This document shows, one piece after another, positions 15,305-31,391 of a stretch of 64,000 bases of DNA. The translations under genes were made by a program, and so were the position numbers. The notes beneath the pieces are model-generated. The model ran no database searches. It saw nothing but the letters and a program-made list of their open reading frames with translations, and was not told the DNA's origin. This stretch comes from Rufibacter glacialis. Lineage in GTDB: Bacteria > Bacteroidota > Bacteroidia > Cytophagales > Hymenobacteraceae. Location of the stretch: positions 310,001-374,000 of the forward strand of contig NZ_VKKZ01000023.1 of assembly GCF_008271745.1 (NCBI RefSeq), given 5' to 3'. Positions within the stretch are counted from its first letter, which is position 1; each line of letters begins with the position of its first letter.

Positions 15305-17068
15305 CTACAAATCCAAGATCTCCAATTGGCCTATCCTGTCGAAACGGAAAGTTCTCTTCTCATCTCTTCGGTTGCAGTACGCGGTGATATAGTCGCTGGT
15401 GAGGTTATAGCGTCTGATGTGCTCCTGCTCCAGCGCGTTTATGGCCAACTGTACATCACAGATCGTTCGGGTGCTTTCCTCCGCTTCAATCCTGTTGAGG
15501 ATCAGCTCTCCTGTTTCCCTGTCAACTGCCATGGAAGACCATGAGGCTCTTGTGTATGTGATCCTGAGGTATTTCTGGTACTGGATGGCTGTGTTCACCA
15601 CTGACTTTATGCTGTCGATCCCAAGGGTCGGCCCTGCCACTCGTAGAGTGAAGGGAGATTCTTTCATAACCACGTTTGATACTTTGGTGACATCGAATTC
15701 TCTTTCGCCATTCTTGACATAGCAGAAGGCGGAAAGTCTGCCGTTCTCGACTTTAATCGGTTTGGCTACCGTAGGTTTATCGTTATAGGTGAAGGAAATA
15801 TATTTCTGCCTAGCGATAGAAGCCCTCAGCATATCCATCTTTGGGTCGGTGGTAGATGTGGCTGTTATTGGGCGTGGTGCCTTGAAGGTCTCATCATTGA
15901 CTTCCTTCTCGATGGCATCCCCAAGGGATGTCTCCGCCACGTTCTCTGTTCGCATAGAGGAGGCGGTATGGCCAAAGCTTTCTATGCCGAGGTATTTTTC
16001 ACGGTACTTCTCCCTCGACCACTGCTTCGCCTGATCCGATGTCCACTGCTGGACTGAGGCTATTTGGTTGGCACTTATAAGTGACGCTGGGATCTGGAAG
16101 GCTGGGTACAGGCTTTTGATGACATCCGCTATGAAAAGGCAGCAGCCCTTCGGGTTCTGGTGAACCTGTTTCTCCGCGAACCTGATCACGATCCAGCCCC
16201 TGTTCCTGAAGGCGAGGTTCCTGGCGGTATCAGCGAGCTGGTGATGCATGGGTTGCCGTGTGGCTATGTCATTGGTGCCTTCGTACGGTTCATCGATCTC
16301 GATGTCGATGAACATGTTGAGGCCGTTGTGCTCGTTCACCAGCGTGAAGTCTGGCTCAAACGGTTGGGCGTTGCCCTTCACCATTATGAAGCGGTCATCG
16401 AAGACTTGGAATGTATCCTTGAAAAAAGGGTCCAATATCTTTTTGAAAGCCTCTTCCTTATATCCCTTTCTGCCGACCCGCCCTTTCCTCGGAAACTTGA
16501 TCACGCTATTAGGTTTAGGCATGATGACAATCGGAAAATTGTACGGCTCAGACTGCTCGAAGACATTCAGAGGCTGGTACCCTATATATTTTACGTTCGT
16601 CTGCGTCTCTGGCTCCGATACCACTGGGGCGGCAGGAGCCAAAGGCTTTGCAACCCGCTGTTGGGGCAGCTCCCTATTCTCAGTCGTTACTGTCCTTCGA
16701 GGAGCCGATTTGATTGGTGGTTTAACCATGGTCGGGGCAGGCGACGGCGTTGGGTTTGATATCCCTATATGCAGGGTGTTACTACTGGATGTGGGATTCT
16801 GGCGGATCACCTTTTCCGCTGGTGGTAGTGTTGGTGGTACGTTCTGGGCCACTGGAGAAGCTGAGGCTTTGTTCTTTACTATAGCAATGTTGGCATCGGC
16901 TACTTTCTTTTTACGTGAAACAAGTAGCCAAATTAGGGCCACTGCCAGGGCGAATAATACCCAGAATATATACATCGAGGTACCCTCGGAATCATTTGCC
17001 GCATCTGCGGTTTGCGTGAGGGTGTCTGACGACATCACCTGCGCAAGTAGATTTTTCTGTACTGTCAT
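15305..17068 (-). CDS. Membrane-anchored PD-(D/E)XK plus double WYL protein
   Basis: 587 residues. One membrane helix (about residues 31-49, YIFWVLFALAVALIWLLV) is followed by a low-complexity Pro/Ser/Ala linker to about residue 150. A nuclease-like core follows with FEPDFTLVNEHNG and FIDIEIDEPYEG, resembling the restriction-type PD-(D/E)XK fold (D and E-x-D). The C-terminal third carries two WYL-like modules (around ARQKYISFTYNDKP and QYQKYLRITYTRASW), ending in FRFDRIGQLEIL. WYL modules usually sense ligands in regulators of defence genes. A membrane-tethered nuclease with two WYL sensors is unusual. Cytoplasmic orientation is inferred. Confidence 0.65.
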   Translation of the reverse strand: MTVQKNLLAQVMSSDTLTQTADAANDSEGTSMYIFWVLFALAVALIWLLVSRKKKVADANIAIVKNKASASPVAQNVPPTLPPAEKVIRQNPTSSSNTLHIGISNPTPSPAPTMVKPPIKSAPRRTVTTENRELPQQRVAKPLAPAAPVVSEPETQTNVKYIGYQPLNVFEQSEPYNFPIVIMPKPNSVIKFPRKGRVGRKGYKEEAFKKILDPFFKDTFQVFDDRFIMVKGNAQPFEPDFTLVNEHNGLNMFIDIEIDEPYEGTNDIATRQPMHHQLADTARNLAFRNRGWIVIRFAEKQVHQNPKGCCLFIADVIKSLYPAFQIPASLISANQIASVQQWTSDQAKQWSREKYREKYLGIESFGHTASSMRTENVAETSLGDAIEKEVNDETFKAPRPITATSTTDPKMDMLRASIARQKYISFTYNDKPTVAKPIKVENGRLSAFCYVKNGEREFDVTKVSNVVMKESPFTLRVAGPTLGIDSIKSVVNTAIQYQKYLRITYTRASWSSMAVDRETGELILNRIEAEESTRTICDVQLAINALEQEHIRRYNLTSDYITAYCNRRDEKRTFRFDRIGQLEILDL

Positions 17069-17214
17069 TTGGTTAATAGAATCTTTGATAAATATAAGTC
17101 CTGAAACATAATGTTATTATGTCTGCCCAATTTCATAAAATTTTCAATACAATTTGTAGCTATTTAACCTTGTTATGGTACCTTACTTGCATTTCGAGGA
17201 AATATGATGCGCCT

Positions 17215-18330
17215 ATGATTGAGGAATATGAAAAACTGATCAAAGAGTTTTATTCGCTGCCAAAGGTGGTGCCTCAGCCCACGTACCTTGAGCTATGCCA
17301 GTACCCGTACCGCAGGTTAAAGGAGATTTGCAGCAGGATGCTCAGCTTCTTTCTTCAGCCTACGGCAGAACACGGCATGGATGAATTGTTCATCCAGTCG
17401 CTTGCCCAAACCTTGCAGGAGGACCTTGAGTACCGCACTGGCAATCTGAGAGTGATCGTGGAGGACAACGCAGAGGGGAAGCGTATAGACCTAGTGGTGG
17501 CAGGGGAGAATTTCGTGATCGGGATTGAGAACAAGATCACTGCAGGTCTGTACAACCCGCTGGATAAATACAGGGAAAAGCTCAGTTCCTACCAGAAGGA
17601 GAAGGCGATCGGCGTCGTCCTCTCACTGAGGAGGGTGCAGCGGAGGGAGGAAGTCGATTGGATGCGGGAGAACGGTTTCGTGAATATCCTTTACTCAGAA
17701 CTGTTCACTAGTGTAAAGCAGAACATAGGCTTCTACCTTGGCAAGAGCAGCGACAAATACCTTATATATCTACAGGACTTCATCAAGACAATAGAGAACA
17801 TGGAAGGCAACAATACCATGAACCAGCCCTTGGCTGACTTCTTCTTCGATAACGCCGAGAAGGTGGATGAATTGGTCAAGCTCTACAATGAGTTCAACAA
17901 CAAAATTACCCAAATTCGGAACCAGCACATCAATTCCCTCCGAGAAGCCATGTCGGAGAAGACTGGGGAAAACTGGTGGATTTGGTCAGGCTTCGACCTT
18001 GGGTTTACCTTCCACGATACCGAAGGTCGCAAGCTTGGTATCGAGTCGGTGTACGAGAAGGAGAAGCGAAACCCTATCGGGAGGTTCAATATTCAGATCA
18101 CCGCATGGAATATTAAAGACTGGGATTACTTCCGCAGCGCGGTCACCCCGCTTTTCCCAGACAATGAGGTGCAGTATGGCGGCGGGAAGGCCAATTTCCG
18201 TCTCGACCCAATGTTGAACCCGACCGAGGAGCAGATAACGGAAAGGCTATTTGAAATATATTCTATCCTGAAGCATAAGGTTGTAGAGCCTATTATTGAA
18301 ATACAGCTAGAAGCACAAACTCTCAATTAA
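17215..18330 (+). CDS. PDDEXK_4-type nuclease family protein
   Basis: 371 residues from ATG 17215 (MIEEYEKLIKEFYSLPK); ATG 17119 in the same frame would add a hydrophobic stretch that does not fit the family. The PD-(D/E)XK core is clear: GKRIDLVVAGENFVIGIENK with D, E and K in order. A C-terminal half (from about 230) with FDLGFTFHD is typical of this family. The protein probably cuts or binds foreign DNA; in other genomes such genes are found in defence islands. An HNH gene follows by 12 bases, so the two form an operon. Confidence 0.75.
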   Translation: MIEEYEKLIKEFYSLPKVVPQPTYLELCQYPYRRLKEICSRMLSFFLQPTAEHGMDELFIQSLAQTLQEDLEYRTGNLRVIVEDNAEGKRIDLVVAGENFVIGIENKITAGLYNPLDKYREKLSSYQKEKAIGVVLSLRRVQRREEVDWMRENGFVNILYSELFTSVKQNIGFYLGKSSDKYLIYLQDFIKTIENMEGNNTMNQPLADFFFDNAEKVDELVKLYNEFNNKITQIRNQHINSLREAMSEKTGENWWIWSGFDLGFTFHDTEGRKLGIESVYEKEKRNPIGRFNIQITAWNIKDWDYFRSAVTPLFPDNEVQYGGGKANFRLDPMLNPTEEQITERLFEIYSILKHKVVEPIIEIQLEAQTLN

Positions 18331-18342
18331 TCAATAAGGGAA

Positions 18343-19491
18343 GTGAGAGTTTTTGACAAAGATGACAGAGACTACCTGAGCTGGATGAATGCCAATCCTG
18401 CCGCTTTCGTGGTTAACACCGAGAGAAGGGGCAACAGTAGATACTATGTGATTCATCGATCTGGCTGCCCCCATATCGCCATTACCAGCGGCCAGACCTA
18501 TGGTGCCTTTACAGAGAGGAACTATATAAAGCTATGCTCTCACGATCCAGGAGAGATAGAGGGCTGGCTTCAGCAGGAAAGACCAAATTTCATTTCCATA
18601 ACCAAGGAGTGTAAGACATGCGCCCCTTCAACTGGTGATGGTGCTTTATCAAATTCGCAGGCAACGGTGAGTTTCGAAAACATCGGGATCGGCGAAAGGT
18701 ATGACAGGAACGTCCTTGCCTCTCTCTGGGGATACCAAGGCCGCCAAGCCATTAGCCGAGGGGTAGTCGCGCCTGCCAATTCAAAGTCCATCATCCTTTT
18801 CGTCACAAGCGAAAAACAAGCATCCCTTACCCAGTACAACGACTACATAAGTGCCGATTACCTATACTGGGAGGGGGAGGAGAAGGGGAGGAGCAACAAT
18901 AGGATCCTTAACGCGAAACAGGCGGGTGACACTATCCACCTGTTCTACCGCGAGAAGCACCACACGGATTTTACCTATATGGGCTTGCTGGAGCTGGAGA
19001 GCGCGGATGTCTTCACTACTCCTATGTCGGCAGTATTCAGGATCATAGGGAGTGCCGATACGGAGATATTGGATCCTGTTTTACCACTTCCTTCAAATGT
19101 CCATGCCACCACACGGCAATCTATAGTCTCCAGCCGAGTCGGTCAGGGAATCTACAGGCAGAACTTGGTTCGGCTCTGGCAGACATGCGCGGTAACGGGG
19201 GCTGGCCCGCTGGGTATCCTTGTCGCTTCCCACATTAAACCATGGAGGGATTGTGACAATATGCAAAGGCTGGATCCGTACAACGGCCTACTTCTGACAC
19301 CCAATCTGGACTCGCTCTTCGACAACGGCTACATCAGTTTCCAGGGTGACGGTACCATCATTATCTCCAAAAGTCTTTCATATCAGTCCTGTAAGCTGCT
19401 TAACATCACTTTAGGAATGCGGCTTAGGAGGGTATACCCTCAGAATTTATCTTATCTGGAATACCATAGAGAGGAAGTGTTCAGAAAGTAG
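18343..19491 (+). CDS. HNH endonuclease-domain protein
   Basis: 382 residues from GTG 18343, 12 bases after the nuclease gene, with AAGGGA just upstream. The C-terminal HNH_2-type core is clear: CAVTGAGPLGILVASHIKPW ... DPYNGLLLTPNLDSLFDNGYI. The middle (about 140-240, SRGVVAPANSKSIILFV ... IHLFYREKHHTDFTYMG) resembles the DUF3427-type module of restriction helicase/HNH proteins. The N-terminal 100 residues (YYVIHRSGCPHIA) are a separate small domain. Expected to cut DNA and act with the upstream PDDEXK protein; whether this is restriction or another defence is inference. Confidence 0.8.
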   Translation: MRVFDKDDRDYLSWMNANPAAFVVNTERRGNSRYYVIHRSGCPHIAITSGQTYGAFTERNYIKLCSHDPGEIEGWLQQERPNFISITKECKTCAPSTGDGALSNSQATVSFENIGIGERYDRNVLASLWGYQGRQAISRGVVAPANSKSIILFVTSEKQASLTQYNDYISADYLYWEGEEKGRSNNRILNAKQAGDTIHLFYREKHHTDFTYMGLLELESADVFTTPMSAVFRIIGSADTEILDPVLPLPSNVHATTRQSIVSSRVGQGIYRQNLVRLWQTCAVTGAGPLGILVASHIKPWRDCDNMQRLDPYNGLLLTPNLDSLFDNGYISFQGDGTIIISKSLSYQSCKLLNITLGMRLRRVYPQNLSYLEYHREEVFRK

Positions 19492-23231: not shown

Positions 23232-24248
23232 TTACATATTTCGATAATGCTTGATACGGTCTTCAAGAACGTCGGATATTTGATCTTTCAACCGCTCAGG
23301 ACTTAAGACCAATACACCTTTCCCGAACCCAAGTATTGTCGAGACCAATTCATAGTTGAGCACCACCCTGAGCCTGATCCTGAACTCCTTGCCGTCATCC
23401 ACGAGCGTCTCCTGCGAGCTGTGAAGGTGCTGTGTCTTCACGTAGTTGCCGTCATGCGGTGAAAAGGATAGAATCACCTCAGTCACCTCACTGTCCTCTA
23501 AAGAGATCCCGATAGTATTCCTGAAATACAGCTCGGGGTCAAAATCCTTTGGCTCCACATACCTCGTACCCTCGGCAAAACCAATACTAACGATGCGGTC
23601 AAGACCGAACTTGCGCAGTTTACCGTCCTCGTGCTGGAACCCTAGCAGGTACCACCTGTTGCGGTACTCCTTGAGCAGATAGGGGCTGACGGTGCGATCT
23701 TTTGGCAGGGGTTGGTCAAAGCTTCGGTGAGATAAAGCGATCGGCTTTCTGCTCCTGATGGACTCGATGATAAAGTCGATGTGTTCATTGCCCACGGAGT
23801 AGGGTGCCTTTTCGAAGTCGATGAACCTGAACGGCTCCTCCGCCCCTTCTTTCCTGATCTGGTTGACCAAGGTGATCACCTTGTCCACGGTAGAGGCGAA
23901 ACCGCTGAGCACCCTCACATGCCTGTACTGGCTGAACGTGGCGGCGGCCATTGCCAGCGCGGCGATCTCCGCCTCATTCAGCGGGAGCTTCTCTATGGAA
24001 TAGTCAGGTTCCGTGTAGACGTAACCGTCGAACTTCTTCAGGTACTTGATCGGTGCCTTATAGTTGAGCTGGGTACAGTGACGCATCAGGTAGATATCAT
24101 TGTCCAGCGTTCTCTCGCTCACCATGATGTCACTCTTCTCCAGAATACGGGCAATTAACTGCTCCTTCGACCAGTACCAGCCAGTCTTGTTCCTGAGGCA
24201 CTCATCAATAATCCTCATCCGCACCAATGCTTGCTTACTTTTAGGCAT
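23232..24248 (-). CDS. WYL-domain transcriptional regulator
   Basis: 338 residues: an N-terminal winged-helix region (1-70, IDECLRNKTGWYWSKEQL), a central helical linker, a WYL domain (about 150-240: KPIALSHRSF ... PYLLKEYRNRWYLLGF ... KFGLDRI) and a WCX-type C-terminus. It is of the BrxR/CapW type, in which a dimeric repressor binds a palindrome and releases it on sensing a ligand. It is divergent from the MBL/E2-E1-JAB operon, with a 12-bp inverted repeat in between. It likely controls that operon and itself. Confidence 0.88.
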   Translation of the reverse strand: MPKSKQALVRMRIIDECLRNKTGWYWSKEQLIARILEKSDIMVSERTLDNDIYLMRHCTQLNYKAPIKYLKKFDGYVYTEPDYSIEKLPLNEAEIAALAMAAATFSQYRHVRVLSGFASTVDKVITLVNQIRKEGAEEPFRFIDFEKAPYSVGNEHIDFIIESIRSRKPIALSHRSFDQPLPKDRTVSPYLLKEYRNRWYLLGFQHEDGKLRKFGLDRIVSIGFAEGTRYVEPKDFDPELYFRNTIGISLEDSEVTEVILSFSPHDGNYVKTQHLHSSQETLVDDGKEFRIRLRVVLNYELVSTILGFGKGVLVLSPERLKDQISDVLEDRIKHYRNM

Positions 24249-24438: not shown

Positions 24439-25608
24439 ATGGCAGATTCAAAAATAAAGTATTACCCAGTAGACAACGGAGATATGTCGCTGATCCTGCT
24501 CCAAGATGACACGTCCATCCTTGTGGACTGTAACATCAGGCAGAGTTCAATCGGCAGCAACGACTCGAAGATTTATGACGTCAAGAAAGACCTTCTCTAC
24601 TCCATTAAAAAGAGAGACTCTAATCCTTTCGTGGATGTATTCGTCTTGACTCACGGCGATTGTGACCACTGTAGGGGCTTCAAAAGCAATTTTTACCAAG
24701 GAGACCCGACCAAGTACAGTGCTGAGGACAGGAAAGAGAATAAAATCCTGATTGACGAGATGTGGTTTTCGCCTATGATCGCGGAAGAGCACACCAACGA
24801 TGATGAGGACGCCTACCAGCAAGAAGCAGAGAGACGAATCGAGTTGCACCGCAAAAAGAGCGCGGACAGAGACAAGACTGGTAACAGAATCAAAATTATA
24901 GGTTACGACGGTAACAAAGACTATAAAGACATAGACCATCTCCGTGCGACCCCTGGCACCGTGGTGGATGAGTTCAACGGCAAAAAGCAGACAACATTCT
25001 CAGTATTCATCCACGCGCCGTTCAAGGAACACTTAGCCTCAGCGGAGAAAGACAAGAACTCTACCAGTATTGTATTCCAAGCAAGGTTCAAAAATGCCTC
25101 CTACGATTCCAAATACGCCTGTCTTGCTATGTTCGGTGGGGATTCTGACCATTACTCATGGGAGATCATTTTGGAGAAAACGAAAAGATACAAGAATGAT
25201 AAAAAAGAGCAGGCACTTGACTGGGATATCTTCCTTGCGCCACACCACTGCTCATGGTCTTTCTTCAATGACCGACCGCAAGCCGATAACCCAGAACCAA
25301 AGGCAAACTCTCTCGAAGTGCTTGATTACAAAAGGACAGGTGGGAAAATTATCGCATCCTGCAAGAAGATACTGGACGAGAAGCCAAACCCTCCTCATTA
25401 TGAGGCGAAGGAGGAGTACGTGAAGAAGTTAGACAAGGCAGCGGACTTTCTCAACACAGCCGTCTACCCGAAGGAATCCGAGCTGAAACCTATTGAGTTT
25501 ACCGTCACCAGCGGGGGGCCGACCCTTTCCCCGACGAGTAAGGTTGGTAGTGCGATAGGTTCCGCTGGCGGATTAGGCGCGGCTTCAACGGTGGTGAAGC
25601 AGGGCTAA
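24439..25608 (+). CDS. Metallo-beta-lactamase-fold protein with Gly-ended tail
   Basis: 389 residues. The MBL metal motif is HGDCDH (H72, D74, D76, H77), the HxDxDH form seen in ComEC-type MBL proteins; later metal ligands are in MFGGDSDHYSWE and LAPHHCSWSFF. No signal or membrane helix is present. After about residue 350 a tail low in structure (TSGGPTLSPTSKVGS ... AGGLGAASTVVKQG) ends in glycine. The E2-E1-JAB gene follows after 2 bases, so it is one operon. It may hydrolyse a nucleic acid or nucleotide. The tail may be the substrate of the E1 domain (inference). Confidence 0.85.
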   Translation: MADSKIKYYPVDNGDMSLILLQDDTSILVDCNIRQSSIGSNDSKIYDVKKDLLYSIKKRDSNPFVDVFVLTHGDCDHCRGFKSNFYQGDPTKYSAEDRKENKILIDEMWFSPMIAEEHTNDDEDAYQQEAERRIELHRKKSADRDKTGNRIKIIGYDGNKDYKDIDHLRATPGTVVDEFNGKKQTTFSVFIHAPFKEHLASAEKDKNSTSIVFQARFKNASYDSKYACLAMFGGDSDHYSWEIILEKTKRYKNDKKEQALDWDIFLAPHHCSWSFFNDRPQADNPEPKANSLEVLDYKRTGGKIIASCKKILDEKPNPPHYEAKEEYVKKLDKAADFLNTAVYPKESELKPIEFTVTSGGPTLSPTSKVGSAIGSAGGLGAASTVVKQG

Positions 25609-25610
25609 AA

Positions 25611-27878
25611 ATGAGTATGCTATTTAGCGAGGGGTTGAAACCTTATGAGGGTGAGCTTTCCGCGGAAATCCAGATTGGGTTAAGAGAGATACGTGACTTC
25701 TTTGGTTTAGAGCAAGTAAGCGTTTTGGCATATGATAAAAATCATATAGCCATACCTGTTACTTACAAGGTATCCATACCTCCACTGGGAACGGTAGGCG
25801 GCATAGACATACGTGAAGAGGAGCCTGTTCTTATCAAAATATCCCTCAACAGGTACCCTGACCACGTACCTTTGATCCTCAGCAACCGCAAGGACTTCCC
25901 AAAGAAGCACCTTGCACATCTCTATGTATCCAGAACCTCGGAGGAGCCAGGCAAGTTCTGCCTTGTGAGGAACAACCCAAATGAGTGGTTCGCAGGGGTC
26001 AGGATGTCGGATCTGCTGGCAGTCGGGGAGCAGTGGCTATTCAAAGCAGCGATCGGTCGGCTCTCCGATGACGGTGAGGAGTTTGACCCCATCCGTCTGG
26101 AGCGTTACAGCGGGTACCATGTATACAAATATGACGTGTTGCATGAAGTGGTGCGCAAGGACGAACGGTTCCTGTCAGACCTTGGGATGGCCCTGCTCTT
26201 CTCATGCATCCTGAACGACCACGACAAAAAGTACGGGTCATTGACATATAAGACATTGTTTTCCGTGCCTTTCTCACAGCTCGATACAATTGTTAAGGTC
26301 ATCGAAGAACTGAACACGAAGGCTAAAAGTAAGTCTAATTCACCTCTTCTGTCTATACTTGTTTGGAGGGTAGACGGCGAGATTGAGGCGGAGTACAGCT
26401 CAAGTCTGCCGAAGGCATTTGGTGACTTAAGGCAGTACTTCAACCAAAGGGGGATTGATATTGACGCAACACTGGCTGTATTTGAGAACTTAGGACTGCG
26501 AGAAAAGCGGGGCCTTCCGATTGTACATGCCATCAAAAGACCAAAGAAGATGGTCGGGTATGGCGGGCATTATGAGTTTATAAACTTCTGTGTACTCACC
26601 CCTGAGACAAAGGGGGTTCCAATTCCAGACGACGCCGAAGTTTGGTGCCAGTCTAATTTGGAACCCTTCAGTCCTGATCTGGCAGCGAAATTGTCTGGGG
26701 AAAGAAGGTCATCCAAAACCGTTTACATTGGTGCAGGCTCCCTAGGTTCCAAGATGATCATACATGACGCCAGAAGTGGTAAGATGGATATCGGCGTGGT
26801 GGATGAAGACAAGCTCCTGCAACACAACCTTGCCCGTCACGCATTGTACGATGATAAGGTGGGGGTGAATAAGGCGGAGGCTATCATCAGGCAGATTTCT
26901 GACATGTTTGAAGCCGACATTACCACAGGTTTCCGTGCCTTTGCTATGGCAGTAGAATTTGTTGCGGACAATGTATTCGAGGAGTATGAGTGGCTGGTGG
27001 ACAGCTCGGCCAGCCTGCTGGTGCAGAATTGGCTCGCAAGGAAGCAGTTTTCAACGTCGCTCAAGGTGAGCCGCTGCGAGATAGCCGATGACGGAAGGCT
27101 CGGGCTGCTTTACATAGAGGGTGAAAATAGAAACCCCCGTATCGATGACTTAATCAACATGGCTTATTTCTCTGCCATCAGCAACGTTGCACTGGAGTCT
27201 TGGAGACGGCGCGACTCAGAAAGGGAGTTTAGCACGATTGATGTTGGGTTGGGGTGCAGCTCCACTACTACCGTAATGCCAGACGATATTATATCCTTTC
27301 ATTCATCGGTGTTCTCCAGACTGCTCCACCAAGAACAAAGCAAATCTTCGATTGGGGGTGAAGGATTGATTTACCTAAGCCAAATTGAGACAGAGGGAAT
27401 CCCGAGGTTGCACAGCGAAACTATCACTGTACCCGCTTTCGAAAGTATGTCGTGTCAAGAAGGAAGCGGTTGGGAGATCAGGATGGCGGCAGGTACATCC
27501 GCAAGACTCCTAAGCCTTTGCAAACAGAATGCTCGGATAGAGACAGGAGGCGTTTTAGTGGGCATGGCCAACTACAAAACCAGTACGATCCATATCTTCG
27601 ATTTAATCGAGGAACCGCAGGACAGTAAAGGAACCTGCACTGGATTTATCAGGGGGGTGAAGGGGCTGTCCGAGATTATAGAAGCGGTCAAAGAAAAGAC
27701 GGGAGGGCTGGTTGGCTATATCGGCGAGTGGCACTCCCATCCAATGGATCTGGAAGGGCTGAGTGCCAGAGATAGGGCCACCATAGAAGAGCTGGCGGTA
27801 GTGAACAGAAAAGTACCTATACCTACCTGTGCGGTTATCGTTACCAACCGCAAGATCCTGCCGTTCATTTTCCTATAG
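25611..27878 (+). CDS. E2-like / E1 (ThiF) / JAB peptidase fusion protein
   Basis: 755 residues with three parts. Residues ~30-150 are E2-like (FPKKHLAHLY ... PGKFCLVRNNPNEWF), with C117 as probable catalytic Cys. Residues ~365-560 are a ThiF/E1 adenylation domain: GAGSLGS (374-380), VVDEDKLLQHNLARH, and GLGCSSTT with C549 a candidate thioester Cys. Residues ~620-755 are a JAB/MPN peptidase with a full JAMM motif: E644, H708, H710, S718, D721. So conjugation and deconjugation sit in one chain. This is the Cap2 plus Cap3 chemistry of type II CBASS in a fused form, but no CD-NTase is present. Its neighbours are the MBL gene and a membrane protein. Confidence 0.9.
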   Translation: MSMLFSEGLKPYEGELSAEIQIGLREIRDFFGLEQVSVLAYDKNHIAIPVTYKVSIPPLGTVGGIDIREEEPVLIKISLNRYPDHVPLILSNRKDFPKKHLAHLYVSRTSEEPGKFCLVRNNPNEWFAGVRMSDLLAVGEQWLFKAAIGRLSDDGEEFDPIRLERYSGYHVYKYDVLHEVVRKDERFLSDLGMALLFSCILNDHDKKYGSLTYKTLFSVPFSQLDTIVKVIEELNTKAKSKSNSPLLSILVWRVDGEIEAEYSSSLPKAFGDLRQYFNQRGIDIDATLAVFENLGLREKRGLPIVHAIKRPKKMVGYGGHYEFINFCVLTPETKGVPIPDDAEVWCQSNLEPFSPDLAAKLSGERRSSKTVYIGAGSLGSKMIIHDARSGKMDIGVVDEDKLLQHNLARHALYDDKVGVNKAEAIIRQISDMFEADITTGFRAFAMAVEFVADNVFEEYEWLVDSSASLLVQNWLARKQFSTSLKVSRCEIADDGRLGLLYIEGENRNPRIDDLINMAYFSAISNVALESWRRRDSEREFSTIDVGLGCSSTTTVMPDDIISFHSSVFSRLLHQEQSKSSIGGEGLIYLSQIETEGIPRLHSETITVPAFESMSCQEGSGWEIRMAAGTSARLLSLCKQNARIETGGVLVGMANYKTSTIHIFDLIEEPQDSKGTCTGFIRGVKGLSEIIEAVKEKTGGLVGYIGEWHSHPMDLEGLSARDRATIEELAVVNRKVPIPTCAVIVTNRKILPFIFL

Positions 27879-27963: not shown

Positions 27964-28542
27964 ATGAACTTCAAAGCATACGATATCCTATCCTCTCTTA
28001 TCCCAGGGTTCTTGATGTTACTTCTATTCCTAAAGCTGGGGAAGATGCCGTTTGACAAGGATATGGTTGTGCCTTATACCGCTGTCGCGTTCCTGCTGGG
28101 TAACGTGATGAATACACTGTCCAGTTGGCTGGAGGACTTCTTCTTTTTCACGTGGGGGGGAAAGCCCTCTGTTCGGTTGTTGGAGGGGAATGGGATCTGG
28201 AAGGTTCGGTTTTATTGCAGCGAGGAGGCCAAGGCTTTACTTATTGCCGAGGGAAAACCGAATGCCTGTAATGATGAACTTTTCTCAATAGCGATGAGAT
28301 ACGCGAACAGCCAAAAAGATCCAAGGGTGGAAGATTTCAACACGGCTTACGCTTTTGCTCGGGTACTGTTAACGACGGTATTTATTGGATCGGCGGTGTT
28401 GATTGTCAGAAATTATATGGATTGGAGATATTACGCTATACTTATACCAATTCTGTTTACCGTTTGGCTACGGTGTAAACAAAGAAATTATTATTATGCT
28501 CGTGAGATATTGACTGTGTACCTGAAAATGAAGACCACCTAA
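27964..28542 (+). CDS. Membrane protein, candidate effector of the E1/E2/JAB locus
   Basis: 192 residues. Helices at about 8-25, 36-52, 131-147 and 152-166 flank a cytoplasmic middle of about 70 residues (SVRLLEGNGIWKVRFYCSEEA). It follows the fusion gene by 85 bases on the same strand. The start (MNFKAYDILSSLIPGF) is a cytoplasmic-to-membrane type. Membrane effectors are frequent in anti-phage systems; an effector role here is inference. Family not recognised. Confidence 0.65.
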   Translation: MNFKAYDILSSLIPGFLMLLLFLKLGKMPFDKDMVVPYTAVAFLLGNVMNTLSSWLEDFFFFTWGGKPSVRLLEGNGIWKVRFYCSEEAKALLIAEGKPNACNDELFSIAMRYANSQKDPRVEDFNTAYAFARVLLTTVFIGSAVLIVRNYMDWRYYAILIPILFTVWLRCKQRNYYYAREILTVYLKMKTT

Positions 28543-29309: not shown

Positions 29310-30119
29310 CTAACAGGCCACCAGCAGGGATCCCTCTTTCTGAGGGCTTGCCAACTGCCTGAGTTTTTCGAGCAGTTGCCGATCCTCCGCCCCATTCAGT
29401 TGGTACATCACTTCCCTTGCCTGAGCCTTTAACTCCCCTCCAATAGAAAGCCTGAAAAGATACTCGTTGATCTCATTTCCCTGTGCGTCAAAACCAAATA
29501 ACCTTAGCTGGAGGTAGTTCCTGTGTAGATAGGCTTCCAGGGTGGCATAGATTTTATTCTGTCTAGGTTTACTGGTTTGGTTTATCCAGTGGTGCCCGCT
29601 TATATAGTCAAGCATGTAAACGATGTGGGCGATCCCAGCCTCGAAGTGCCTTTTCGTCTCTGTGTAGAGATGGGAATTCTTGCCGCCCTCGCTGACCGTC
29701 ATCTCCGTGGGCAAGGTCAAGACGCAGTCCTTGCTGAACAAACGCCTTCCCCTTTGGCCGAAGCTTCGGTTGTTGACTGGTGGGAGCGGGGTGAGGTTAT
29801 TGCTGACGTAGGAGTTGAGTAGATAGCCTACAAGGGGAATCAACCGAAGGTAACAGATAAACCTTTTGGTGATGTTGCCATTCCTGCTGTCGTAAGTAGT
29901 AAAACATATCCTTCCCTTTTCGTCGAGGCGGTGGGTTACCTTCATGAATGGGTTCTGGCTTTCTTCCTTGATATCGGCGAACAAGGCAAGGACATGTTGG
30001 TTGGAGTGGGCTGAGTAGTGGCTTTCGCCTTTTGTCAGATCGATCTGGTTCATTTCTGCGGCCTTCACGGTTTTGTAGAAGGGGCTTTTGTGGGCGATGC
30101 CGAGTATTAATGTGTTCAT
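29310..30119 (-). CDS. Hypothetical protein, paralogue of the 30558-31391 gene
   Basis: 269 residues, soluble. It aligns by eye with its neighbour: SPFYK/SPLYT near the start, LPPVNNRSF/LPPVNHSRY in the middle, GIAHIVYML/GIAHMVHVL, and LFRLSIGGEL/KFELRLGGEM toward the end. Family not recognised. Each copy stands alone with its own terminator, like a cassette. Leads into the plasmid-like module. Confidence 0.6.
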   Translation of the reverse strand: MNTLILGIAHKSPFYKTVKAAEMNQIDLTKGESHYSAHSNQHVLALFADIKEESQNPFMKVTHRLDEKGRICFTTYDSRNGNITKRFICYLRLIPLVGYLLNSYVSNNLTPLPPVNNRSFGQRGRRLFSKDCVLTLPTEMTVSEGGKNSHLYTETKRHFEAGIAHIVYMLDYISGHHWINQTSKPRQNKIYATLEAYLHRNYLQLRLFGFDAQGNEINEYLFRLSIGGELKAQAREVMYQLNGAEDRQLLEKLRQLASPQKEGSLLVAC

Positions 30120-30557: not shown

Positions 30558-31391
30558 CTAAAACAAACTCATGGAGTCAAGGATGACCCTACAGCCCAGA
30601 ACCGATCCCATCCAGGGTTTCCCACCCCACTGTTTATACTCTATGAAAAGGGGCTTACCCTCCCCATGCTCGAAACCCTCCACCGTCCCGTGCATCTCTC
30701 CGCCGAGCCTGAGTTCGAATTTGTACAGTACCTTGGTTTTTCCCTCCGAGTTAAAGGTGTAGATGGTCATTGTGACAAGGTCTTGGTAAGTTTCCTCGTC
30801 AATCACCGCCATGATATGTGCGTATAATGCCCCTTCCCGTGGGGTGAGACCGCGGTCATACCAAGTGTACCCCGTGGTCTCCCCTAATACGTGCACCATG
30901 TGGGCGATACCTAACCCGAACTCCTCCTCAGACTCGGTATAGAATCCATAGCGGTTACGTGCGGGTTCAGAAGTGAACTCGGTGGCCTTTGAGTACGGGG
31001 TATTGCTGTCCCAGACCCCCAAGGCCCATGCTTCGTACCTGCTGTGGTTGACGGGTGGCAGGTGGGAGGGGACCGAGGTGATTTTCGTGCCGAACGCGGA
31101 TTCGAATTCGCCTTTATACCGCAAGTCAAAATACCTTCTGATCGGTCGTTTATCGGTCCAGTCGGTGGAGGCGAAGCAAAGCCAATTATCATTTTCAATA
31201 GTGTGGGTCACGGGCTTTACGCTTAACTGGCTATCGAGCATTACCACATCCGAGATCCCGACCAATTGCTCAGGGGTAAGACCGCGGTAATACTCTTCAT
31301 TCAGGTCTTTGTCGATGGTATTGTAATCGGTAAGAGCCATTTTGGTGTAGAGGGGACTGGTATTCAGTATGTCCTTTAGGCTGAAATCCAT
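30558..31391 (-). CDS. Hypothetical protein, paralogue of the 29310-30119 gene
   Basis: 277 residues, soluble, acidic. Shared blocks with the other copy are listed there; this copy has a longer C-terminus (GGEMHGTVEGFEHGEGKPLF ... GSVLGCRVILDSMSLF). Family not recognised. Divergence is large, so the duplication is old or both were acquired. Adjacent to the polymerase homologue on the same strand. Confidence 0.6.
   Translation of the reverse strand: MDFSLKDILNTSPLYTKMALTDYNTIDKDLNEEYYRGLTPEQLVGISDVVMLDSQLSVKPVTHTIENDNWLCFASTDWTDKRPIRRYFDLRYKGEFESAFGTKITSVPSHLPPVNHSRYEAWALGVWDSNTPYSKATEFTSEPARNRYGFYTESEEEFGLGIAHMVHVLGETTGYTWYDRGLTPREGALYAHIMAVIDEETYQDLVTMTIYTFNSEGKTKVLYKFELRLGGEMHGTVEGFEHGEGKPLFIEYKQWGGKPWMGSVLGCRVILDSMSLF

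Follow-up and report, generated by a model that had tools for sequence, protein, structure and literature searches.

In type II cyclic oligonucleotide-based antiphage signaling systems (CBASS), the E1/E2 enzyme Cap2 is described as forming a thioester with the C-terminal glycine of a cGAS/DncV-like nucleotidyltransferase (CD-NTase), and its partner Cap3 as cutting just behind that glycine (PMC10097602); reversible conjugation is also described in PMC11153139. According to Jenson et al., CD-NTases have a conserved final G or A only where the operon carries both Cap2 and Cap3 (PMC10097602). A 2025 review presents Cap2 as the only ubiquitin-type transferase then known to activate a protein that lacks the β-grasp fold, with others perhaps undiscovered (PMC12355090). 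Operon type 6a of Iyer, Burroughs and Aravind (2006) usually consists of two genes, one encoding a triple-module E2-E1-JAB protein and the other a specialised metallo-β-lactamase-fold (MBL) protein (PMC1779556). Here we describe a locus of this kind in a 64,000-nucleotide stretch of the Rufibacter glacialis genome (the window; RefSeq assembly GCF_008271745.1, contig NZ_VKKZ01000023.1, positions 310,001 to 374,000). We propose, with a probability of about three in four and on sequence-level grounds, that this locus encodes a CBASS-like and presumably anti-phage module, with a ComEC-type MBL as the conjugated enzyme in place of the CD-NTase.

The window contains both features of type 6a, an E2-E1-JAB protein with its modules in that order and an adjacent MBL gene. 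It differs in that the passages of PMC1779556 describing type 6a mention neither a role for the MBL tail, nor a third gene for a membrane protein or patatin, nor a version with a standalone E2. An earlier account of the window made from the letters alone (the sequence-only reading) had rightly pointed to E1, E2 and JAB modules beside MBL genes in comparative work, but the fused form that it took to be little studied is already type 6a of 2006 (PMC1779556). The pair of genes is therefore known, and a test of the tail was not found in the literature: no paper on an MBL as a conjugated substrate was among the matches listed in the open-access literature, preprints not covered.

A Cap2-like fusion enzyme beside a ComEC-type hydrolase

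The MBL open reading frame (ORF) encodes 389 residues ending in STVVKQG. Its TAA stop codon (25606–25608) is separated by two bases (aa) from the ATG (25611) of the 755-residue E2-E1-JAB protein, a spacing that the sequence-only reading had given correctly. The full-length E2-E1-JAB gene is present in a single copy in the 5.3-Mb source genome (25 contigs). Pfam places Prok-E2_A (residues 63–168, 1.8e-8), ThiF (366–483, 3e-10) and Prok-JAB (632–738, 4.7e-7) along this protein, all three exceeding their curated cut-offs. In an alignment of 60 intact fused proteins (the window and 59 of 68 homologues, with near-duplicates and split or truncated proteins left out), the E2 and E1 residues C117, G374, G376, G379 and C549 and the JAB residues E644, H708, S718 and D721 are each found in 60/60 rows, and H710 in 59/60. 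Domain order and residue conservation thus bear out the single gene with E2, ThiF/E1 and JAB parts that had been read from the sequence. The best fold match to the model of this protein (pLDDT, the predicted local distance difference test, of 89.9) is Cap2 bound to CdnD02 (7to3, 2.0e-25), and the same Cap2 entry is the top solved structure in a profile search (6.8e-24). In the related locus L126 (8130–10506), E2-E1 and JAB apparently occupy two overlapping frames rather than one protein, an arrangement that recalls Cap2 and Cap3.

The MBL has no Pfam match at E<0.1 and only weak matches to the PADLOC models LmuA, RTasMBL and Avs1a (5.9e-9 to 3.9e-5). Its AlphaFold2 model (pLDDT 88.5) resembles the MBL domain of ComEC (Foldseek 2.3e-12; for 9ic4, Z 24.5 and a root-mean-square deviation of 3.0 over 257 aligned residues) and also the phosphorylcholine esterase Pce (Z 22). 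The metal-site residues H72, D76, H77, D235, H269 and H270 are present in all 74 rows of an MBL alignment (the window and 73 of 79 homologues, near-duplicates left out), and position 74 is D in 62 rows and H in 12. As judged by the modelled fold, the enzyme may cut nucleic acid; in the slot of a signal-producing enzyme, it may instead make or release something that acts on a membrane effector.

Conservation of the tail glycine

Relatives were collected with an MBL profile from genome contigs (the best 80 of 305 confirmed relatives) and viral contigs (7 loci), and 21 plasmid matches were examined as regions. With the family limit set at E<1e-30 to the MBL profile, 127 of 152 loci pass, and these hold 121 distinct MBL proteins. 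The loci L098–L119, obtained in the Bacteroidota search, are short weak matches, most of them ComEC-like, which failed this limit and were dropped; L134 and L137 are partial matches that also fall below it. In 116 of the 127 family loci, the E2-E1-JAB profile has a match within 2.5 kb downstream. Four of the remaining 11 carry a small E2-like gene instead (L012, L035 and L039 by profile; L036 by eye, without a Pfam match). Three (L043, L097, L138) show the start of a further frame at the end of the contig or locus, E2-like by eye in L043 and L097, and in the other four (L038, L060, L064, L086) the sequence stops inside or just past the MBL.

Tails were compared in 63 representatives, namely E1-linked MBLs with complete tails clustered at 70% identity, window included. 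All 63 have a glycine among their final seven residues. When the last 40 residues were shuffled in 2000 trials, the same property was found in a mean of 36.7 and a maximum of 49 of the 63, and it is shared by 31.6% of 760 control ORFs (other mechanically called ORFs of at least 200 residues from these loci, not all genes). The glycine is terminal in 27/63 representatives, compared with 6.4% of the controls; in the other 36, one to six residues follow the last glycine, as in tails with the endings PRAGR and KYGNGEV. The conserved terminal glycine that the sequence-only reading had suggested looking for in homologues therefore holds as a glycine close to the end, but as the very last residue in those 27 only. 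For the window protein itself its description of a flexible, glycine-ended tail was accurate: Gly389 is the last residue, and residues 368–389 have a pLDDT below 50.

In 62/63 representatives, the pair [YHAQF]G is present within the last 11 residues, the exception being L034 with NG; shuffled tails give a mean of 14.7 and a maximum of 27; before clustering, the pair is found in 112 of 114 tails. Among loci fetched after the pattern had been noticed, [YHAQ]G was seen in 22 of 23 (20 of 21 minus two repeats), with FG in the one miss, L152. In L130 and L144, HGC is followed by several residues (HGCRNKDS and HGCGSDLA), so that the glycine is succeeded by a cysteine. A second MBL-like gene of related loci ends in glycine in 0/13 copies. 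By eye, 12 of 45 related loci have such a gene within 2.5 kb (for example L006, 8486–9556); the one in L008 (9210–10289) is annotated as MBL fold.

A second tail ending beside standalone E2 proteins

The standalone E2s of L012 (2.9e-55), L035 (9.8e-55) and L039 (2.9e-42) match PADLOC E2 models and are related to E2s that lie beside CD-NTases and adenylate/guanylate cyclases in CBASS- and Pycsar-like loci. A search with the L035 E2 matched 11 plasmid records, six of which were examined. The E2 is downstream of an annotated nucleotidyltransferase in L154, L155, L157 and L158. In L156 it lies behind an adenylate/guanylate cyclase accompanied by a Pycsar effector, and in L153 behind an MBL whose match to the family profile is distant (3.5e-13). 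PADLOC model PDLC00865 is found in 9 of 395 Bacteroidota genomes, where the upstream proteins are, by eye, six CD-NTases and three cyclases.

Of the 19 enzymes encoded upstream of standalone E2s, 15 carry a C-terminal [KR]P[WY] followed by a few more residues (13 of 14 non-MBL enzymes and 2 of 5 MBLs), an ending seen in 0/63 E1-linked MBLs and 3/760 control ORFs. The four misses are L012 (QPHCTND), L036 (RFYGEE), L039 (GNWCKS) and L166 (PRQYSNK). The narrower [KR]PW accounts for 7 of the first 10 partners and 4 of the 9 fetched later, and with Y admitted, 8 of those 9 are covered. The type of tail thus differs where the conjugation module differs, E2-E1-JAB on the one hand and standalone E2, with no E1 or JAB seen in those loci, on the other. 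The G or A ends of CD-NTases, tied to the presence of Cap2 and Cap3 (PMC10097602), follow the same principle. L012 offers the closest comparison. The catalytic part of its MBL is 75% identical to that of the window, the third closest of the 73 aligned, but the glycine is lost and only 6 of 29 tail residues are identical, whereas E2-E1-JAB-linked relatives at 63–66% identity that end in QG or HG have 14–18 of the 29 in common with the window.

A standalone E2 with a SEC-C domain stands behind adenylate/guanylate cyclases in L156 (1485–3606), L161, L164 and L165, with a Pycsar effector annotated once, and the four cyclases end in [KR]P[WY] like the CD-NTases of E2-only loci. The combination of cyclase and standalone E2 is a candidate E2-regulated Pycsar system.

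Third gene and search for a ubiquitin-like partner

The gene that follows E2-E1-JAB was surveyed in 49 loci (the 63 representatives minus 3 on the minus strand and 11 without downstream sequence). A third gene on the same strand lies within 130 bases in 39 of them. Assigned by reading, 24 of these 39 encode small membrane proteins that belong to several families, 5 encode patatins, 1 encodes a further MBL-like protein and 9 encode other products, and a membrane protein or patatin is next in 29/49 loci. The patatins were recognised by Pfam for L024, which forms a BLAST cluster with four of the five, and by record annotation for L149. In the window, the third gene encodes a 192-residue protein in a single-linkage BLAST cluster with the third genes of 19 other loci; it matches the PADLOC candidate PDC-M48A weakly (7.9e-6), and one third-gene membrane family is that candidate (L052, 3.7e-62). 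A third gene, in many loci one for a membrane protein or patatin, is part of the pattern and had been missing from the sequence-only reading.

Bil and Bub ubiquitin-like systems are defined by a gene for a β-grasp ubiquitin-like protein. No such gene was recognised among the scanned neighbours in the window by Pfam and PADLOC, with no fold search of small neighbours made, and the 14 neighbour families shared most widely by 45 related loci (ORFs of at least 60 residues) include no small glycine-ended protein, in agreement with what had been read from the window sequence. A CD-NTase is likewise absent from the 15 neighbour proteins scanned between 15.3 and 30.1 kb, and none was recognised in the same 14 families. 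As no CD-NTase was found, the locus is not CBASS, although it looks built to work alike.

Alternative explanations

At the level of sequence, the conjugated MBL is supported by the tail glycine, the catalytic residues, the lack of a shared ubiquitin-like neighbor, the tails of standalone-E2 loci and the exchangeable third gene. The substitution of the MBL for the CD-NTase as the conjugated protein, which was the central proposal of the sequence-only reading, gains from the first and third of these in particular, the glycine being kept in 63/63 representatives.

Several observations weigh against this interpretation. (i) For a free glycine, trimming must be assumed in 36/63 tails, unlike CD-NTases that end in G or A. 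(ii) The motif overlaps an in-frame ATG in 25–28 of 63 representatives, and the Tyr or His at its −1 position may be a coupling signal. (iii) Two letters of the motifs, F in [YHAQF]G and Y in [KR]P[WY], were admitted once later tails had been seen. (iv) [KR]P[WY] is missing from three of the five standalone-E2 MBLs, and L036 retains YG. (v) E1-linked relatives with YG endings match only 4–13 of the 29 window tail residues, so that low tail identity alone says little and, for L012, the loss of the glycine outweighs it. (vi) A same-strand third gene is missing in 10/49 loci and an unrelated one is present in 9/49.

The best-placed alternative, which we nevertheless consider unlikely, is that the MBL is an unconjugated nuclease effector, and that E2-E1-JAB acts on some other protein or JAB cleavage activates the MBL. 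MBL hydrolases of Hachiman (HamM) and AVAST are described as DNases that resemble DNA-uptake nucleases, are kept as proenzymes and cut DNA once proteolysed (PMC12799240), and the window MBL, with its ComEC-like fold, metal ligands and intact metal site, is similar to them. The partner that switches on those enzymes is a protease, however, while here it is a conjugation enzyme, and a nuclease effector of this kind leaves unexplained both the conservation of the glycine and the different tails beside standalone E2s.

It is more doubtful still that the Tyr- or His-Gly pair is a translational-coupling signal, in which TATGG or CATGG supplies the start codon of E2-E1-JAB and conservation acts at the DNA level only. 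In seven representatives (L003, L016, L032, L051, L056, L094, L128), xG occurs twice within the last 11 residues, and the overlap was therefore counted in two ways: the glycine coincides with an ATG that is in frame with the following gene in 25/63 representatives when the first xG is taken and in 28/63 when the last is. The remaining 38/63 or 35/63, every AG and QG form (in the first-xG count) among them, have no embedded start and yet retain the glycine, and for these representatives the overlap was rejected as a complete explanation of the motif. Furthermore, within the last 63 bases, an ATG with this offset is followed in the MBL by Gly in 28 cases and by A, V, D or E in 11, against about one quarter Gly expected for GNN codons. 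Coupling may shape the Tyr or His, but it does not account for the glycine. Least probable of all is a ubiquitin-like protein encoded elsewhere in the genome, with the MBL tail as an unrelated flexible end, for although the survey was confined to neighbours and distant genes fall outside its scope, plasmids from several phyla carry related operons that have no small partner in common, and the tail type tracks the conjugation module.

Proposed mechanism

By analogy with the action of Cap2 and Cap3 on the CD-NTase, the MBL would be activated through its glycine and trimmed and released by JAB. Combining these elements, we propose the following order of events for the conjugated MBL. The fused JAB would first trim the residues beyond the tail glycine where they are present; in more than half of the MBLs, such residues could be removed in this way. 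The E1 would then adenylate the C-terminal glycine of the MBL and pass it via Cys549 to Cys117 of the E2, as the conserved residues and the similarity to Cap2 suggest. The acceptor of the MBL would be a target or the MBL itself, and JAB would undo the linkage. More speculatively, the conjugation state might set the activity or the location of the MBL. The MBL in turn might cooperate with the neighbouring membrane protein or phospholipase, either by way of a product or by cleaving nucleic acid itself.

The locus shares with type II CBASS a Cap2-like E2/E1, a JAB, an enzyme without the ubiquitin fold that carries a conserved tail glycine, and membrane-acting neighbours. It differs in having an MBL for the CD-NTase, in the fusion of JAB (apparently separate in L126) and in the residues that follow the last glycine in 36/63 representatives, whereas the type II CBASS tail has Gly or Ala as its last residue, as the window tail does with Gly389.

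Genomic setting and distribution

Table 1. Features of the locus in the window.
Feature	Coordinates	Strand	Basis
WYL-domain regulator, divergent, optional part	23232–24248	−	Pfam WYL 3.5e-14, WCX 8.6e-9
ComEC-type MBL-fold hydrolase, proposed conjugated enzyme	24439–25608	+	AlphaFold2 model compared with ComEC MBL 9ic4; metal ligands
MBL C-terminal tail, residues 361–389, ending KQG (Gly389 codon 25603–25605)	25519–25605	+	low pLDDT; Gly kept in homologues
E2-E1-JAB fusion, Cap2-like	25611–27878	+	Pfam, Cap2 profile and fold match, catalytic residues
E2 Cys117 codon	25959–25961	+	part of the E2-E1-JAB gene
E1 Cys549 codon	27255–27257	+	part of the E2-E1-JAB gene
JAB	about 27504–27824	+	part of the E2-E1-JAB gene
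192-residue membrane protein, candidate membrane effector	27964–28542	+	two hydrophobic stretches; third-gene BLAST cluster; weak PADLOC match

A WYL regulator is annotated divergently upstream in L003, L007, L009, L140, L142, L143 and L148 as well. A similarity search with the window WYL protein finds one each in 2 of 45 loci, and it was hence rejected as a constant part. Further upstream, PADLOC matches the defence candidate PDC-S26 (gene 17119–18330, 8.3e-66), a WYL-like reverse-transcriptase-associated model (15305–17068, 9.2e-12) and an HNH endonuclease (18343–19491, 1e-23), and the segment 15305–19491 is a possible defence island. Downstream, two minus-strand genes (29310–30119, 269 residues, and 30558–31391, 277 residues) look like paralogues by eye; the first is without a Pfam match at E<0.1.

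Among the best 80 of 305 relatives, the closest MBLs are those of two Pontibacter genomes (91 and 89% identity). In sampled Bacteroidota, 7 of 395 genomes have a match at E<1e-40, with the source genome counted. At E<1e-15, the corresponding figures, with centre genomes counted, are 8 of 398 in the phylum of the Burkholderia locus and 2 of 348 in that of the Clostridium locus. Matches are present in 253 of 72,556 plasmid records, 141 of these typed as conjugative, in two archaeal metagenome-assembled genomes (Methanoregula, L041; Methanosaeta, L046), and, as operon relatives, in 31 of 5426 complete Escherichia coli genomes. Copies in commensal E. coli include one on a plasmid of SE11. A phage origin was considered and rejected, the MBL having no match in 50,697 phage records, though 7 loci come from IMG/VR, with one more besides.

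Implications

These observations can be extended to a broader proposition, which we hold to be reasonably probable, if less so than the conjugated MBL itself. Prokaryotic immunity would have a general, swappable conjugation slot, into which CD-NTases, cyclases and MBLs are captured via a C-terminal code set by the module: xG with optional trailing residues where this is E2-E1-JAB, and [KR]P[WY] where it is a standalone E2. The conjugation of proteins outside the ubiquitin fold would then be a common layer of control and not a peculiarity of CBASS, and the two tail endings would serve as a reading rule for spotting further conjugated enzymes from sequence. The locus offers a candidate substrate outside the β-grasp fold, the residue through which it would be conjugated and a natural comparison in L012, and because the operon has relatives in E. 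coli, the question is open to experiment in a laboratory organism.

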